The notes beneath the pieces are model-generated. The model saw only the letters and a list, made by a program, of their open reading frames with translations. It ran no database searches and was not told where the DNA came from. From Desulfosporosinus sp. (GTDB lineage Bacteria; Bacillota; Desulfitobacteriia; Desulfitobacteriales; Desulfitobacteriaceae), in NCBI GenBank assembly GCA_031292095.1, contig JARLHU010000016.1, positions 1 to 64,000 of the forward strand: DNA of 64,000 nucleotides. The letters run 5' to 3'. A program made the position numbers and the translations under genes. Positions 13,699 to 56,633 of this stretch are shown in pieces (the stretch's first letter is position 1; each line of letters starts with the position of its first letter).

Positions 13699-15318
13699 CT
13701 AATCTTCTTCTAAAAACTCCATAAAAGGTTTTTTCATACTTACAAGTGCATTGACCATAAGTTCAACTAAGCCACCATACTGAACATTAAATTTGGTGGT
13801 CGCTTCATAAAACTCCAGAATGTCCCGAATAGCTCCTTTACAATTAGAACAAGGAGCACACACATATTTAGGTATAGCAGCATTTTCCATGCTGTCCTGA
13901 AAGGCTCCAAGAATCTGGTTAAACTTCATGCGAGAACTGACCTTATTTCGCCATTCGTAAAAATTAAGGGAATTTGTTATGGCGAACCCCCCCCCACCAC
14001 CACAGCAGTAATTGTCGACTCCATGCGGAGTCATTTCCCTAAACTGAGGGCAAATTGCTTTTAAAACATGCCGTTGAGGTTCGACAATCCCCATGCCACG
14101 AACATAATTACAAGGATCATGGAGCGTGACAGGAAAATTATTTTTACTGGGATCGAACTTTAATTGTTTGCTCTTGACCATATCCCAAAGAAGAGGTAAA
14201 CAACTCTCTACAGGGACTTTAATATCTCCGGGTACCAAGCGATCTCCTACAATTGCTGAGGCTTTATGGGCATGTCCACACTCGGCAATGACAATGCGGT
14301 TGACACCTAAATCCTTGGCGACCTTCATCTGCAAATTAGCTAGTGTTTTTGCTTGGAAATCATCATACCAGATGCCGTAGTTGACATTGTCATAGCCCGC
14401 GATTTCACTACTGAGTGTCCAATTTAAGCCAGCCTCTTCAAAGAGAATGGCAAAAGCAATGGGGTTTTCCGGCCAGGCCATATACTCGCCTGCATTATGC
14501 AAGAGAAGGATATCGGCACCTTTTTTGTCCATCGGAAATTTAATCTTCAAGCCATACTTTTCTTCGATATCCTCTTCTAAAAATTCAATCGTATCTAAGA
14601 AAGCAGGTTTGCTGACTCCCGTAGACGAACCTGTATTTATCTGAAGGACCGTGCCTTTTGTATGCAGAGGAAGCGGAGCGATACCCATTTCTTGGCTGAA
14701 GATCTTGCGAATCTCCTTTGTTAGAATGGCGTTATCTAAGCCCAGCGGGCAAGTCTGAGCACAGCGACGGCATAGGTTACAACGGTAAGCCAATTCTCCC
14801 AGTCGAGCAATTGTCTCCCAGTTCACATCAAGATCTGCTCCGACGAAACCACCTAACAACCTTCCACTTGTCGTAAAGTACTTCTTGACGATTTTTCGTA
14901 GAACTTCAGAACGAAAAATGGGACGGTATAACTCGTTCTTCCCTGATGCTTCATAGATATGGCAGGCAGCTGAACACGTATCACATTTAGCACAGTATTC
15001 AAAGGACAATAAGAACGGTTGGAGTATGCCATTGTTGGCGTCAGAAAAGCTCTTTTCTAAGCCCCTGAGGAACATTCGGACAAATTCATCTTCTTCCGCT
15101 TTAGTTTTTGGGCGGGTTAAGGTATCGACGCCAACGTAGCCATCTAAAGATGTGCAAAATTTTTCTTGCCACGCAGGCTTAGGATCAGTTAAGGGGGGTT
15201 CCATTCCGGGTTTATCATAAGGCGGAAATAATAACATTAGCTGTTCAGGTTCGAGTTTGATCAGTTGTTCATCCGATCGTCCCATATCCCTTGGACGTAA
15301 ATCTTTTTGATTTATCAT
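13699..15318 (-). CDS. HdrD/DsrK-like Fe-S protein with CCG domains
   Basis: A 539-residue protein. A ferredoxin module has two 4Fe-4S motifs (CAKCDTCSAACHIY and CNLCRRCAQTCPLG, about residues 110-205). It is followed by two cysteine-rich CCG-type domains (the DPCNYVRG...CCGGGGG pattern around 400-450, and CAPCSNCKG near 490), which in heterodisulfide reductase bind a catalytic 4Fe-4S cluster. Similar proteins (HdrD, DsrK, TmcB) pass electrons from membrane quinones or carriers to thiol/disulfide or sulfite-reduction systems. No partner subunit is adjacent, so its specific partner is unknown. The ATG at 15318 follows AGGAGAG by 6 nt; an upstream GTG at 15339 is less likely. Confidence 0.82.
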   Translation of the reverse strand: MINQKDLRPRDMGRSDEQLIKLEPEQLMLLFPPYDKPGMEPPLTDPKPAWQEKFCTSLDGYVGVDTLTRPKTKAEEDEFVRMFLRGLEKSFSDANNGILQPFLLSFEYCAKCDTCSAACHIYEASGKNELYRPIFRSEVLRKIVKKYFTTSGRLLGGFVGADLDVNWETIARLGELAYRCNLCRRCAQTCPLGLDNAILTKEIRKIFSQEMGIAPLPLHTKGTVLQINTGSSTGVSKPAFLDTIEFLEEDIEEKYGLKIKFPMDKKGADILLLHNAGEYMAWPENPIAFAILFEEAGLNWTLSSEIAGYDNVNYGIWYDDFQAKTLANLQMKVAKDLGVNRIVIAECGHAHKASAIVGDRLVPGDIKVPVESCLPLLWDMVKSKQLKFDPSKNNFPVTLHDPCNYVRGMGIVEPQRHVLKAICPQFREMTPHGVDNYCCGGGGGFAITNSLNFYEWRNKVSSRMKFNQILGAFQDSMENAAIPKYVCAPCSNCKGAIRDILEFYEATTKFNVQYGGLVELMVNALVSMKKPFMEFLEED

Positions 15319-15517
15319 ACTCAGCTCTCCTCTTTCCACAAAGTAACTCGCAAAAAAATGTAGTTATTCCTTGGGGCGCTTTGTTTGCTTCACTATGAAG
15401 GAAGTAAATAAAAAGATGTGATTTACGGTTAAATGTATAGTGAAAATAATAGCAAACTTAAAAAATAAATTTTAACTTAATTAAGTATAACTTTTTAGGT
15501 ATCAAATTGCAATATAA

Positions 15518-16241: not shown

Positions 16242-17150
16242 GTGAATGTTGATGTTATAGGTGTTCCTATTGATTTGGGAGCCAATAGAAGAGGGGTTGA
16301 TCTGGGACCAAGTGCCATAAGATATGGTGGCTTGAAAAAAGCTATCACCAACCTCAATATAGCTTATCAAGATCTAGGTAACATTGATGTGCCTATTCCG
16401 GAAAGTTATGATGAGTATGAAGATGAGCGGCTTAAGCATCTTGATGAAATAGCATATGTTAATCAAACCTTGGCTACCTTAGTAAGTAAAAGTCTCTTAG
16501 ACGGGAATTTTCCAATTGTCCTCGGTGGCGATCATAGTATTGCTGCTGGAAGTATCTTAGGCACTCAGAGTGTATTAGGAAATATCGGTGTGATTTGGAT
16601 CGATGCGCATGGTGACTTTAATACCAGAGAAACTACTTTGTCGGGTAATTTACATGGAATGTCACTAGCAGCGGCAGCAGGTTTTGGTGCCTTGGAAATG
16701 GTTAAATTTAAAGCTAAGGACGTTAACTACGTGAACCCGAAAAAAATTGTCTTAGTGGGTGCTAGGGATATTGATGACCAGGAAGCAAAATTAATAAAAG
16801 AATCAGGAATTACAGTCTTTACAATCGCTGATGTTGATGAGTATGGGATAAAAGAGGTTATGCTTCGAGCATTAGAAATTGTAAGCACCGATACCGAAGG
16901 TTTTCATATTAGTTTTGATATTGATGTCATTAATCCTAATGAAGCTCCAGGCGTGGGAACTCCTGTCGATGGGGGTCTTACCTACAGAGAGGCACATTTG
17001 GCAGCAGAATTGATAGCAAATAACAAGAAATTGCGTTCTTTAGAAATCGTTGAAGTTAACCCTATTTTTGATCATATGAATCAAACTGGGAAGTTAGCGG
17101 TCTCCCTTATTTGTTCAATGATTGGCAAAAGAATTCTAGGTTCACATTGA
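16242..17150 (+). CDS. rocF: Arginase
   Basis: Hydrolyses arginine to ornithine and urea using a binuclear manganese centre. The 302-residue protein has all metal-ligand motifs: GGDHS (His98), DAHGDFN (Asp121, His123, Asp125) and SFDIDVINP (two Asp near 228-230), plus the arginase-type loop SGNLHGMSLAAAAG that discriminates arginase from agmatinase, and the opening GVPIDLGANRRGVDLGPSAIR. GTG at 16242 follows AAAGGAG by 7 nt. Convergent with it lies an ornithine-cyclodeaminase-family gene, so arginine could be taken through ornithine to proline. The upstream 140 bp contain a repeat copy and an AT-rich promoter region. Confidence 0.92.
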   Translation: MNVDVIGVPIDLGANRRGVDLGPSAIRYGGLKKAITNLNIAYQDLGNIDVPIPESYDEYEDERLKHLDEIAYVNQTLATLVSKSLLDGNFPIVLGGDHSIAAGSILGTQSVLGNIGVIWIDAHGDFNTRETTLSGNLHGMSLAAAAGFGALEMVKFKAKDVNYVNPKKIVLVGARDIDDQEAKLIKESGITVFTIADVDEYGIKEVMLRALEIVSTDTEGFHISFDIDVINPNEAPGVGTPVDGGLTYREAHLAAELIANNKKLRSLEIVEVNPIFDHMNQTGKLAVSLICSMIGKRILGSH

Positions 17151-17164
17151 AGTTTCGATAATTA

Positions 17165-17210
17165 TTGAAAAGACTTATAAGTGAAAACTTTGAGTCTTTT
17201 CAATTTTTTT
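17165..17210 (+). terminator. Arginase terminator
   Basis: TTGAAAAGACT and AGTCTTTTCAA form an 11-bp perfect stem followed by seven T residues, 15 bp before the end of the convergent gene. Confidence 0.9.
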
Positions 17211-17224
17211 AGTGGAGAAAAAAG

Positions 17225-18310
17225 TTAGCGTAAATTTCTGTCCAGATTTACCAGGAAATCCTGAATATTCGTGACGATCGATGTAACCTCAAGCGTCCCC
17301 CGATCTCTTAATTTATTGACCACAAATTCCGATATATCGACACCATAAATAAATACGGGCCTTATCTTACCATTGATCACTTGATAGGAGGGCGTCATAT
17401 TACCTACTGCGATTGTATGAAGTTGTGTTGCCAACCCTAAGACGGTTGTAGCTTTTTTAGTATATTCTCTCATCATATCTTGAGCATCATAGGCATTGGG
17501 AATAACTTCAGGTAATGGACCGTCATCTCTAATTGAGCCTGCTAAGATCAGCGGAACGTTATTTTCAAGGCAAGCATAAACAATACCATCGCGAATTTGC
17601 TCCTGTAATACAAATTCTTCTAGAGATGCGTATTGGCGGGCTCTATTGATGACGTCAATATGATGATAGTGACCTTTCGAAATGGGTACCTGTGTATAGA
17701 CATCCTGTCCGAGGGCAGTCTTAAATAATTCACTCTCTAAATCATGAGTGGCTAAAGCATTTCCAGCAAGAACTGCGTGAACATAGCCTTTCTCAATTAG
17801 AGAAATCATGGCTTGCTTCGAATCGTGATCAAAAGTAACGGCAGGTCCTAATACGAACACAATAAAGCCATGACTTTTCTCATAGCTTAGTAACTCATAC
17901 AATCTGTCATAGTCCCTGGAAAAAGACGTTTCCCGTGATCTTCCGGATCTAAAAACAAAGGTTTCCTCTGACGGCTGCTTACTTTTAAAACCATTGGTAT
18001 GAACATAGATGCCTTGGGTAGCATCTTCAGTTCTTCCTACGACAACTCTCTCGCCGACTATCAATTTTCTAAACGCTTTTACCTCTAAGCTCCCGTTATC
18101 TTTTACGACGACTACGCAGTCCATCCGACTTTTAGGCACCAGAGTCCATTTGTCATTCATTTTAAAGTATTCAGGAAAAATTGTTGTGGCATGAAAATTT
18201 TCTGGAGCGACACCACTTTTTACAACGACTTCGGTAAGTACATTTGGACTGGATTTTAAAGCATCTGACTCAAAATCCGGCTCCGTATATTCTGGTAAAA
18301 TAAAATCCAT
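17225..18310 (-). CDS. TIGR00300/LOR-SDH family protein, probable ornithine cyclodeaminase
   Basis: A 361-residue protein of the TIGR00300 family (LOR/SDH bifunctional-enzyme conserved domain in residues 1-110, then a Rossmann-like C-terminal domain). Archaeal members act as NAD-dependent ornithine cyclodeaminases giving proline and ammonia, and the same domain forms the C-terminus of cyanobacterial ArgZ/AgrE. Recognisable stretches are LPEYTEPDFESDAL, VVGRTEDATQGIYVHTNGF, AVLAGNALATHDLESE and SIRDDGPLPEV. Ornithine is a product of the neighbouring convergent arginase, which supports this assignment. GAGGGAGGA precedes the ATG. The assignment to the family is firm; the reaction is inferred. 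Confidence 0.75.
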   Translation of the reverse strand: MDFILPEYTEPDFESDALKSSPNVLTEVVVKSGVAPENFHATTIFPEYFKMNDKWTLVPKSRMDCVVVVKDNGSLEVKAFRKLIVGERVVVGRTEDATQGIYVHTNGFKSKQPSEETFVFRSGRSRETSFSRDYDRLYELLSYEKSHGFIVFVLGPAVTFDHDSKQAMISLIEKGYVHAVLAGNALATHDLESELFKTALGQDVYTQVPISKGHYHHIDVINRARQYASLEEFVLQEQIRDGIVYACLENNVPLILAGSIRDDGPLPEVIPNAYDAQDMMREYTKKATTVLGLATQLHTIAVGNMTPSYQVINGKIRPVFIYGVDISEFVVNKLRDRGTLEVTSIVTNIQDFLVNLDRNLR

Positions 18311-18440: not shown

Positions 18441-18623
18441 CAGAAAGTATAAACTAGCGTTATATACTTTCTAAGCATAAGAGCAACTAGACTGCCGCTG
18501 GCCATGGATGGCCGAGTGTCCCTGTAGCCAAGGATGGCGAGAAGGGACCGCCTTCGCTAAGGCTGCAAGAAGGCTAATTCGTGCGAAGACAGTGTCTTCG
18601 GGCGCCAGTCAAGTTTTCTTTAT
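18441..18623 (+). repeat. Repeat family B, longest copy
   Basis: A 183-bp non-coding element. It starts with a 10-bp stem hairpin (AGAAAGTATA at 18442-18451 with TATACTTTCT at 18463-18472) and ends GCGCCAG...AAGTTTTCTTTAT. Compared with the copy at 33016-33106 (opposite orientation) it contains roughly 90 extra bp in the middle that include GGCCATGGATGGCC-like palindromes. It occupies much of the 468-bp gap 18311-18778; the rest of that gap holds the promoter region of the SQR-like gene. Confidence 0.6.
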
Positions 18624-18778: not shown

Positions 18779-19981
18779 GTGGCTAAAATAATCGTAGTAG
18801 GTGGTAACTTTGCTGGTCTCACTAGTGCCTTAGAACTTAGGAGAAAATTAGGTCATGACCATGAGGTTATCATGATTTCAAAGTCACCTAACTTTTTGTT
18901 CGTTCCTTCCTTAATCTGGGTGCCCTTTGGGAAAAGGGACCTCAAAGATATTACGGTACCATTAAAACCCGTTGCGACCAAAGCTGGGTTGAAATTTATT
19001 TGTGCAGAAATCCTAGAAATATTAGCGGAAGATAAGGTTATCCGCTGCAAGGACAAAGACTTTAAGTATGATTATTTAATCATCGCAACCGGTCCTGAAT
19101 GGATCTTTGACCAAATCGCAGGCTTAGGTGTAAACAGTAAAGTGTCGTTTATTGTCACGCCTGAAACAGCGTTGGAAACCCGTAAACGTTGGTTAGAATT
19201 TATTAGGGATCCGGGTCCCGTCGTGATCGGTGCAGCGCCAGGTTCTCAGTGTACTGGGCCCACTTACGAATTTCTGTTTAACTTAGAGAAGCAATGTCGA
19301 GATCACGGGATCCGTAAGAAAGTGGACATCACGTTCATTACCCCTGAGCCTTTTCTAGGGCACTTAGGCGTAGGGGGTATTACCGGAAGTAACTTCATTC
19401 TGAAAAAAATGTTACGCATGTTCAGGATTAACTACTTAACAAATGTGGAAATCTATGAGGTTTCCAGCGAAACTATTGTACTTAAAAGCGGACAAAGCTT
19501 CCCATATAAATTTTCGATGATAATGCCTAGCTTTAAAGGTGCTAAGGTCGTTCGAGATTCGACTGGGTTGGGAACTGAAGATGCCTTTATACCGGTTCAC
19601 AATACGTATCAACATAAACACTATCCAAGTATTTTTGGAGTTGGTATGGCAGCGGATCTGCCTATTAAGTTTAGAACTCCAGTGCCGATTGGCGTGCCAA
19701 AGACGGGATATGCCGCCGATGAATCTGGCAAAACTGCTGCCGAAAACATTGTGAGATTGCTAAACGGGAATAATAAGCTTGAAGCGAAGCCGATGGGTAA
19801 GATCCCGGACCTATGTATAATGGATGCCGGTGACAAAGAAATGCTAAGTATAACGGATAGTTTACTTAAACCACGCAGGTTTTCCATTGTGTTACCTAAC
19901 CCTTTTTACGATCTTAGCAAACTAATGTTTGAAAAATATTATCTTTGGAAAGTAAGACATGGGTATAGCCGGCTACCTTAA
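18779..19981 (+). CDS. Sulfide:quinone oxidoreductase-like flavoprotein
   Basis: A 400-residue FAD protein of the SQR/FCSD branch of the pyridine nucleotide-disulfide reductase superfamily. Residues 4-13 form the FAD-binding VVGGNFAGL motif and ATGPEW (about 103-108) is the second FAD contact. Cys158 (GSQCTGP) and Cys346 (PDLCIMD) sit where the two redox cysteines of SQR are expected; the third cysteine of type I enzymes is not obvious. The C-terminal YDLSKLMFEKYYLWKVRHGY resembles the amphipathic membrane anchor. It would oxidise sulfide (or a related thiol) and reduce menaquinone at the inner face of the membrane. GTG at 18779 follows GAGGGGG. Monocistronic. Confidence 0.75.
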   Translation: MAKIIVVGGNFAGLTSALELRRKLGHDHEVIMISKSPNFLFVPSLIWVPFGKRDLKDITVPLKPVATKAGLKFICAEILEILAEDKVIRCKDKDFKYDYLIIATGPEWIFDQIAGLGVNSKVSFIVTPETALETRKRWLEFIRDPGPVVIGAAPGSQCTGPTYEFLFNLEKQCRDHGIRKKVDITFITPEPFLGHLGVGGITGSNFILKKMLRMFRINYLTNVEIYEVSSETIVLKSGQSFPYKFSMIMPSFKGAKVVRDSTGLGTEDAFIPVHNTYQHKHYPSIFGVGMAADLPIKFRTPVPIGVPKTGYAADESGKTAAENIVRLLNGNNKLEAKPMGKIPDLCIMDAGDKEMLSITDSLLKPRRFSIVLPNPFYDLSKLMFEKYYLWKVRHGYSRLP

Positions 19982-55232: not shown

Positions 55233-56633
55233 ATGCCTGGTGATGTTTTGGTCTTAGCTTTAAGGCAGCTCTTTAATTCGATTGAAGAAGGGGTTATAGT
55301 TACTGACCCAGAAGGTAAAATAATTTTTTATAATTCCGAGATGGCTAAATTAGAAGACTTATTACCCGAAAATGTCGTGGGACGATATTTAGCTGAAGTA
55401 TATGATGCAGTTACGCTAGAGAGCAGTGAACATTTAAGGGTTGTTCTAACCGGAAAGCCTATTTTGGAAAAGCATAAAACTTACTTCACAAACAAGGGTA
55501 AAGAGGTCAACATTGTAGCGAGTACTTTTCCCGTACTAGAGAACAGTGAGGTTGTAGCAGTATACTCGGTGTGTAAAAATATTACCAGGTTTAAAGAACT
55601 GTTGACTAAAACCCTGCAATTGCACGATCAAATTGGGCTCGAGGGATATCGTGATAATGGTACGCGCTATACATTTGAATCAATCAATTATGCTAGCTCC
55701 ACGATGCAAAGTCTGCTTCTTTCTGCGAAGAAAGCGGCAATAGTGGATGGTTTTATTTTAATTTTTGGGGAAACAGGAACAGGTAAAGAGTTATTGGTTC
55801 AAGCAATTCATAATCATAGCGCCCGTAAAAAGGAACCTTTCGTAGCGATTAATTGTGCTGCGATTCCGGAAACTTTGTTGGAAAGCATCCTTTTTGGTAC
55901 AGCCAAAGGGGCGTTTACAGGAGCAGTGGAATCTAAGGGTCTGTTTCAACAAGCTGGAAACGGGACCTTGTTTTTGGACGAGCTGAATTCTCTGAGTATT
56001 GCCCTCCAGGCTAAACTCCTGCGAGTCCTCCAGGAAAAAATGGTGAGGCGGGTTGGTGGGACGATGGAAATTCCAGTTCAATGTAGGATTATCAGTTCCA
56101 CCAATGTCGATCCCTGGGAATCGGTTAATAACGGTTCCTTGCGCAAAGATCTTTTTTATCGGTTGGCTGTGATCACTCTCTATGTTCCTCCCTTAAAAGA
56201 CCGGAAGGAAGATATTGAGGCCTTAATCTCTTTTTTTCTGAACAAATATCAAAGAATTTATGGCTTAGGGAGTGTCCTAATTGGCAATGAGGTAAAGGCC
56301 TTCTTTGCTAGATATCCATGGCCAGGTAATGTTCGTGAATTAGAACACACTATTGAAAGTGCCATGAGTATGCTGGATGGTCGAAACGTCTTGACAATTG
56401 AGCATTTGCCACATTACATAAAATCAAAGTTTCTCAGTCAGGATGGTGCCTTCTCCGAATTATACAATAAGGGTTCCCGTACCTTAGCTCATGTCTTGCG
56501 TGAGGTGGAAAGGCAAGTTCTTTGGGAAGCCTTGAAGAACCACAATGGAAATATCACCAAAGCTGCTGATTCCATCGGGATAGCTCGGCAAAATCTCCAA
56601 TATCGTATGAAGAAATTAGGACTGGGGATTTAA
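55233..56633 (+). CDS. Sigma-54-dependent activator with PAS domain
   Basis: A 466-residue enhancer-binding protein. A PAS sensor domain (about 7-120), a short linker, the AAA+ domain (about 150-385) with Walker A GETGTGKE (179-186), the sigma-54 contact loop GAFTGA (226-231) and Walker B in LFLDELNSL, and a C-terminal Fis-type HTH (NHNGNITKAADSIGIARQNLQYRM). It starts 6 bp after the FAD-protein gene, so it may belong to the same operon. The only clear -24/-12 promoter in the window lies 420 bp downstream, before the OpuC-type importer; that is its most likely target. Confidence 0.9.
   Translation: MPGDVLVLALRQLFNSIEEGVIVTDPEGKIIFYNSEMAKLEDLLPENVVGRYLAEVYDAVTLESSEHLRVVLTGKPILEKHKTYFTNKGKEVNIVASTFPVLENSEVVAVYSVCKNITRFKELLTKTLQLHDQIGLEGYRDNGTRYTFESINYASSTMQSLLLSAKKAAIVDGFILIFGETGTGKELLVQAIHNHSARKKEPFVAINCAAIPETLLESILFGTAKGAFTGAVESKGLFQQAGNGTLFLDELNSLSIALQAKLLRVLQEKMVRRVGGTMEIPVQCRIISSTNVDPWESVNNGSLRKDLFYRLAVITLYVPPLKDRKEDIEALISFFLNKYQRIYGLGSVLIGNEVKAFFARYPWPGNVRELEHTIESAMSMLDGRNVLTIEHLPHYIKSKFLSQDGAFSELYNKGSRTLAHVLREVERQVLWEALKNHNGNITKAADSIGIARQNLQYRMKKLGLGI

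Follow-up and report, generated by a model that had tools for sequence, protein, structure and literature searches.

The conversion of arginine to proline by way of ornithine, through an arginase and an ornithine cyclodeaminase, has been on record for Ti plasmids since 1987, according to the accessible portion of PMC4575208. In the cyanobacterium Anabaena, the TIGR00300-related protein AgrE is reported to take arginine to proline (PMC8262935, in the part available), and the archaeal enzyme MMP1218 is reported to convert ornithine to proline (PMC10809761, likewise an excerpt). The available section of PMC9815643 describes proline formed from ornithine as something that gut clostridia ferment. 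As far as these partial texts go, the reactions, the two-gene arrangement (Ti plasmids) and the enzyme type (archaea and cyanobacteria) are already known, and the original prediction for the locus studied here went too far in presenting a two-enzyme route to proline as not widely described in this kind of organism (route reported for Ti plasmids, PMC4575208, and for AgrE, PMC8262935).

One family of this enzyme type, NF052526, bears the NCBI name "putative NPN-dependent ornithine cyclodeaminase", NPN being the nickel-pincer nucleotide. It is named only as "putative" although it occurs in several bacterial phyla, and the gene contexts in which it is found bear on its substrate. Our literature searches turned up no assay of an NF052526 protein and, in what were mostly titles and abstract openings, no mention of the family in work on arginase and ornithine cyclodeaminase, on Desulfosporosinus arginase or on Paraclostridium ornithine and proline metabolism.

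In this work we analysed a stretch of 64,000 nucleotides from the sulfate-reducing bacterium Desulfosporosinus sp. (contig JARLHU010000016.1; hereafter the window), in which an NF052526 gene lies tail to tail with an arginase gene. Based on sequence, the two neighbours probably form a two-step path from arginine to proline, with substrate, product, cofactor and physiological role as we infer them below. What is new here is the corrected family of the second gene, evidence that the pair recurs and has moved laterally, the racemase-like partner that arginases have in other lineages, and counts that question a general need for NPN in the wider family. The features of the locus are the following:

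16242..17150, + strand: arginase, 302 aa, GTG start (TIGR01229, Pfam, structure relative, motifs)
17164..17204, no strand assigned: stem-loop between both stop codons
17225..18310, - strand: stand-alone ornithine cyclodeaminase-like protein, family NF052526, 361 aa, ATG start

Results

Identity of the two genes

The protein of 16242-17150 reads as an arginase by all the tests made. It scores 289.5 bits on the TIGR01229 profile (cut-off 227.6, E 3e-86), carries the Pfam Arginase domain (8.8e-74), has the arginase 1cev as its top solved relative (3.7e-85) and, in a sequence scan, contains all of the motifs GGDHS, DAHGD, SFDID and EVNP, which supply Mn and substrate ligands in arginases; the first three fit the metal-ligand patterns GGDHS, DAHxD and SxDxD.

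The 361-aa protein matches the NF052526 profile over its full length with 594.4 bits (cut-off 440, 6.4e-179). On the TIGR00300 profile it reaches 258.1 bits, under the cut-off of 410.8, with an alignment that begins at model position 81 and leaves the N-terminal region of the model absent; since it falls below this cut-off, its profile scores place it in NF052526, a sister family of TIGR00300, and not in TIGR00300 proper. Pfam finds the domains ArgZ-like_C_1st and ArgZ-like_C_2nd and no PF02423 (mu-crystallin type) match in it. The solved relatives are ArgZ (6juy), MMP1218 (3c2q) and AgrE (6lrf/6lrh). An AlphaFold model (pLDDT 88.5, pTM 0.87), searched with Foldseek, resembles 3c2q (TM 0.79) and AgrE with ornithine and NAD+ (6lrg; TM 0.56, 33% identity), and its far matches include the NAD enzyme deoxyhypusine synthase (TM about 0.43). 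The original prediction of an arginase facing a cyclodeaminase-type gene is thus borne out for both open reading frames (ORFs) in coordinates, strands and strong family matches, and so is its statement that the second protein is not of the mu-crystallin type. Its assignment to the TIGR00300 type survives as kinship with the archaeal and cyanobacterial enzymes, with the family itself now corrected to NF052526.

The two stop codons are 74 bp apart. The stem-loop between them folds with -18.6 kcal/mol on the + strand and -14.2 on the - strand (z -5.6 and -5.5), a value matched by none of 200 shuffles on either strand, and is followed by a T-run on the + strand. It is probably a shared two-way terminator, although a simple consensus scan did not have it in its list; in the consensus scan for promoter-like sites there was no excess (3 sites, where shuffled sequence gave 8.8 on average). 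Because the genes converge, they do not form one transcript.

Conserved positions of the two cyclodeaminase families

Aligning 81 NF052526-type proteins with TIGR00300-type ones from the phylum (13 of 14 retrieved; two of the 13 scored on the model, with 507 and 543 bits) shows a common core formed by GNAxAxHDxE, GHxxH, GSIRDDGPxP, LHxIAxGNxxP and VxKLxDRG, each position being conserved at 90% or more in both sets. The families differ systematically at other places: NF052526 has F160 and D163 where the TIGR00300-type has H and G (FDxDS versus typically IHTG, (I/V)H(T/S)G), a loop with a conserved R317 inserted after GNMTP, and E328, F329 and N332 where the TIGR00300-type has P, A and T. To judge from the alignment, the NF052526-specific positions probably lie in the cofactor-binding half, and such differences at conserved positions mean that substrate or cofactor may have shifted between the families.

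Occurrence of the pair

The window genome holds one match for each of the two genes. Within its class, NF052526 exceeds the cut-off in 19 of 82 genomes, and in 14 of the 19 corresponding stretches (18 relatives plus the window, four of them short) the gene converges with glnS, named from a reading of the sequence, either adjoining it or one small ORF apart (cluster c2). Among these stretches an arginase lies near the NF052526 gene only in the window genome and in Desulfosporosinus sp. SbF1 (G012).

We also considered named loci chosen by likeness to the window protein and its class relatives, namely the best 80 of at least 571 relatives, which are 56-91% identical and count as NF052526-type by likeness rather than by individual model scores; the ORF picker missed the NF052526-type gene in nine of them. 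By tblastn on all 80, 11 have an arginase no further than 1.5 kb from the gene, and 69 have none in the stretch examined, 16 loci having less than 1.5 kb on one side. Seven of the 11 pairs are immediate and tail to tail, a further tail-facing pair (L072) has two ORFs between its genes, L075 has both genes on the same strand, and L097 and L113 are divergent. The pair therefore recurs in differing surroundings and in three orientations, and the result that would have told against the original prediction, namely a pair confined to this genome, was not obtained.

Descent of the pair

In a quick tree of the cyclodeaminases (81 rows, SH-aLRT support), in which the NF052526-type genes come from several bacterial phyla, the window protein groups with those of SbF1 (91% identical) and Petroclostridium sp. 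X23 (84%) at a support of 100, and seven other Desulfosporosinus proteins form a clade of their own (99). A single cyclodeaminase clade for the genus is rejected (p-AU 8e-133, 34-row subset). The arginase tree has the same group of window, SbF1 and Petroclostridium (100/99), and here too a single clade for the genus is rejected (p-AU 4e-6, with the long-branched L075 omitted). Additionally, a 100/100 branch separates the 12 paired arginases from 27 others; as the 27 all come from the window's class, sampling may account in part for this single paired clade. Since the pair groups with Petroclostridium, apart from the other Desulfosporosinus, the trees point to a horizontal move of both genes together across genera, and the arginase-NF052526 pair seems to have been transferred between genera as a unit.

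Association with ornithine metabolism

The two genes tend to be found in the same genomes. An arginase over the cut-off is present in 14 of 14 genomes of the genus with NF052526 versus 4 of 15 without (Fisher 5e-5), and in 16 of 19 genomes of the class versus 13 of 63 (8e-7), both values being inflated by kinship and drawn from few lineages.

Arginases of the class often have another partner, a gene of some 355 codons which we had considered as a mu-crystallin cyclodeaminase and rejected as such. The six proteins scanned contain Ala_racemase_N and score 406-438 bits on the ornithine racemase model Orr, under its cut-off of 480, so that we call them racemase-like only. Of the 29 loci in the class whose arginase exceeds the cut-off, 11 have this gene directly upstream of the arginase; within about 1.5 kb on each side of the arginase, it was found in 11 of 13 genomes without NF052526 versus none of 16 with it (2.3e-6), a count confounded by kinship and drawn from few lineages, with two of the 11 in the window's genus.

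Further arrangements were met in more distant genomes. A Spirochaetales MAG (L132:3696-7074) has, in a one-strand row with gaps of some 20-30 bp, an arginine deiminase (NF002381 462 bits, over 414; TIGR01078 469.7, under 489.1), an ornithine carbamoyltransferase (TIGR00658 420.6, cut-off 280.85) and an NF052526-type gene. At L185:3736-5960, from genome G144 of the phylum, an arginase gene (281.6 bits) comes after that of a genuine TIGR00300 enzyme (507 bits), both on one strand. In a Glassbacteria MAG (L142:7974-10297), an ornithine-racemase-like gene (Orr 237 bits, cut-off 480) comes directly after the NF052526-type gene, an arrangement that could involve D-ornithine. As a point against a link of the family to ornithine, the unpaired NF052526-type genes have no recurrent neighbour, no family being seen more than four times among 92 of the 95 neighbours at 49 loci (a survey that omitted 31 loci, 11 of them paired and 20 from Desulfitobacteriaceae or close kin of kept loci). 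The metabolite that the separate arrangements share is ornithine, and these gene contexts tie NF052526 to ornithine as its predicted substrate and give concrete reasons to expect it.

The cofactor of the cyclodeaminase

In the NCBI naming, TIGR00300 is NPN-dependent and NF052526 putatively so, which makes both cyclodeaminases candidate additional users of the nickel-pincer cofactor. Our literature searches found no paper tying NPN to ornithine cyclodeaminase, and a text search of two NPN papers gave no mention of ornithine. In the part available, a Haloferax paper says only that an enzyme using the nickel-pincer cofactor may exist (PMC8305020), and a genome survey, likewise seen as an excerpt, finds larB, larC and larE without larA in about 15% of the genomes analysed and suspects other users of this cofactor (PMC11796402).

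Genes for larC, larE and LarA-type proteins are all present in the window genome, so that NPN could be available. In the class, 78 of 82 genomes have larC over the cut-off and 76 have larE (TIGR00268, which we take to be LarE), among them 18 and 17, respectively, of the 19 genomes that have NF052526; being near-universal, the two genes make co-occurrence in the class uninformative on NPN. For the phylum we sampled 398 genomes (completeness of at least 95% requested, the window genome excepted), of which 24 match NF052526 at E<=0.001 and, with the fragments G171 and G360 dropped, 22 remain: five over the NF052526 cut-off and 17 below it, taken as TIGR00300-type. Among the 22, larC occurs in nine, versus 241 of 398 overall (Fisher p 0.07), and larE (sought in 24 genomes, including G012 and G056 of the class) exceeds the cut-off in the same nine. 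Both are missing from 12 of the 17 TIGR00300-type genomes and one of the five NF052526 genomes (G111), where for 10 of these 13 the absence of larC means that it is not among the matches listed. Eleven of the 13 keep a LarA-type (Lar_N) match, so that salvage of NPN or an unseen route is possible; the two without it, G194 and G222, are TIGR00300-type. A strong Lar_N with no detectable larC or larE is seen in G099, G111, G122, G136, G155, G176, G182, G200, G227 and G304. As for the controls, Methanocaldococcus jannaschii and Haloferax volcanii, the two with a match, have larC and no Lar_N, as NPN use predicts, and Synechococcus elongatus and Corynebacterium glutamicum have larC, no Lar_N and no match.

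NPN dependence may thus not be general in the wider TIGR00300/NF052526 family, and for NF052526 itself the counts say little. The AgrE structure 6lrg was, by its title, solved with NAD+, and we lean towards a nicotinamide cofactor for the cyclodeaminase reaction, NPN being a further candidate.

Proline supply and surroundings in the window genome

In the window genome, a draft that is 92.58% complete, no proB exceeds the cut-off and no proA was found. Since the draft is incomplete, and since the sister genome G012 has the same pair together with a proB of 424 bits (77 of the 82 class genomes have proB), proB and proA may equally well have been lost or have fallen into a gap of the assembly, and a replacement of the glutamate route by the pair is no more than one possible reading. 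If proB and proA were truly lacking, the pair would be the only proline route detected among those searched.

Adjoining the pair, an intergenic palindromic stretch (18501-18537, GCCATGGATGGC...) occurs in one copy in the window; its 11-base core is also present in L028, L051 and L053, from two other Desulfosporosinus genomes, and may be a dispersed repeat or chance, 11 bases being few. Next in the window, 18779-19981 encodes a flavoprotein that is far kin of the selenoprotein-type type III sulfide:quinone reductase (118.6 bits, cut-off 525). On the other side, 13699-15339 encodes a DsrK-like iron-sulfur protein (378.1 bits, DsrK cut-off 400), with no other dsr gene in nine further ORFs scanned near it. 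At 55233-56633 there is a sigma-54 regulator that resembles PrdR, the regulator of proline reductase, best of all (358 bits, cut-off 795).

Discussion

We consider it likely that the pair is a mobile arginine-to-proline unit, a two-gene counterpart of the fused cyanobacterial AgrE. In favour of this are the family matches and shared core motifs, the return of the pair at other loci, its descent apart from the genus and the ornithine-related neighbours of the family; the 69 of 80 loci without an arginase, the glnS neighbour in most Desulfosporosinus relatives and the deviating conserved positions of NF052526 count against it. In the proposed mechanism, the arginase would split arginine into ornithine and urea, and the NF052526 protein would convert ornithine, by deamination and cyclisation, to proline and ammonia, most likely with a bound nicotinamide-type cofactor that takes up a hydride for a time and gives it back, as in AgrE. 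The unit would use arginine as a source of nitrogen and proline, with urea, ammonia and proline as the compounds formed.

A more far-reaching version, which we put forward tentatively and think rather doubtful, would make NF052526 a third, separate kind of ornithine cyclodeaminase, one whose cofactor pocket has changed and which has no need for nickel-pincer; in these anaerobes it would be swapped with an ornithine racemase as the partner of arginase. If so, arginine would go to proline or to D-ornithine depending on the partner held in the lineage.

It is unlikely that NF052526 uses ornithine without making L-proline from it, or works preferentially on D-ornithine with D-proline as the product, the pair then feeding a fermentative branch instead of proline supply. 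The racemase-like gene that directly follows the NF052526-type gene in the Glassbacteria MAG, the racemase-like partner that arginases of the class otherwise often have, and the systematic differences between NF052526 and TIGR00300-type proteins are what such a reading would lead one to see; nevertheless, the core motifs are common to the two families, a racemase neighbour in one of 80 loci is thin, and no racemase was found among the scanned ORFs beside the window's pair.

Less probable again is that the arginase serves urea production or the balance of pH or nitrogen, its neighbour being a mere ornithine sink or unrelated and the adjacency a by-product of joint transfer. The convergence of the genes onto a terminator-like stem in the 74-bp gap fits this, as does the fact that most class relatives keep their arginase and NF052526 genes apart, and a role of the urea cycle is discussed, in the available part of PMC8982180, for an acidophilic sulfate reducer whose arginase went undetected in the proteome. 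The recurrence of the pair in differing surroundings and three orientations speaks against it, however, and the co-occurrence and the racemase pattern point to a shared metabolism.

A lysine-oxoglutarate reductase/saccharopine-dehydrogenase-like activity of NF052526, which the 3c2q title ("conserved putative LOR/SDH protein") might suggest, is highly improbable, given that proline formation is reported for MMP1218 and AgrE (PMC10809761 and PMC8262935, as excerpted) and that the TIGR00300 match lacks the N-terminal region of the model, before position 81.

Comparison with known systems

The arginine-to-proline unit that we favour may be set beside four described systems. With the two genes of the Agrobacterium Ti plasmids it would share the same two reactions, although the second enzyme there is, in the accessible text of PMC4575208, of pfam02423 and unrelated to that of the window. 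The archaeal TIGR00300 enzyme (MMP1218, 3c2q) is alike in fold (TM 0.79) and core motifs and differs in the first 80 model positions, which the window protein does not have, in FDxDS and in the insert after GNMTP. From the NF052526 family, which the window protein matches at full length over the cut-off, no difference was found. The cyclodeaminase region of AgrE/ArgZ (NF052231) corresponds to the window protein, residues 24-360 of the query falling on positions 365-692 of 696 with about 33% identity (Foldseek), and the net chemistry from arginine to proline would be that reported for AgrE; nevertheless, the 361-aa protein has no fused arginine dihydrolase domain (NF052231 score 232.7, cut-off 1025), and where the fused dihydrolase removes the guanidine group as CO2 and ammonia, the separate arginase of this pair would yield urea.
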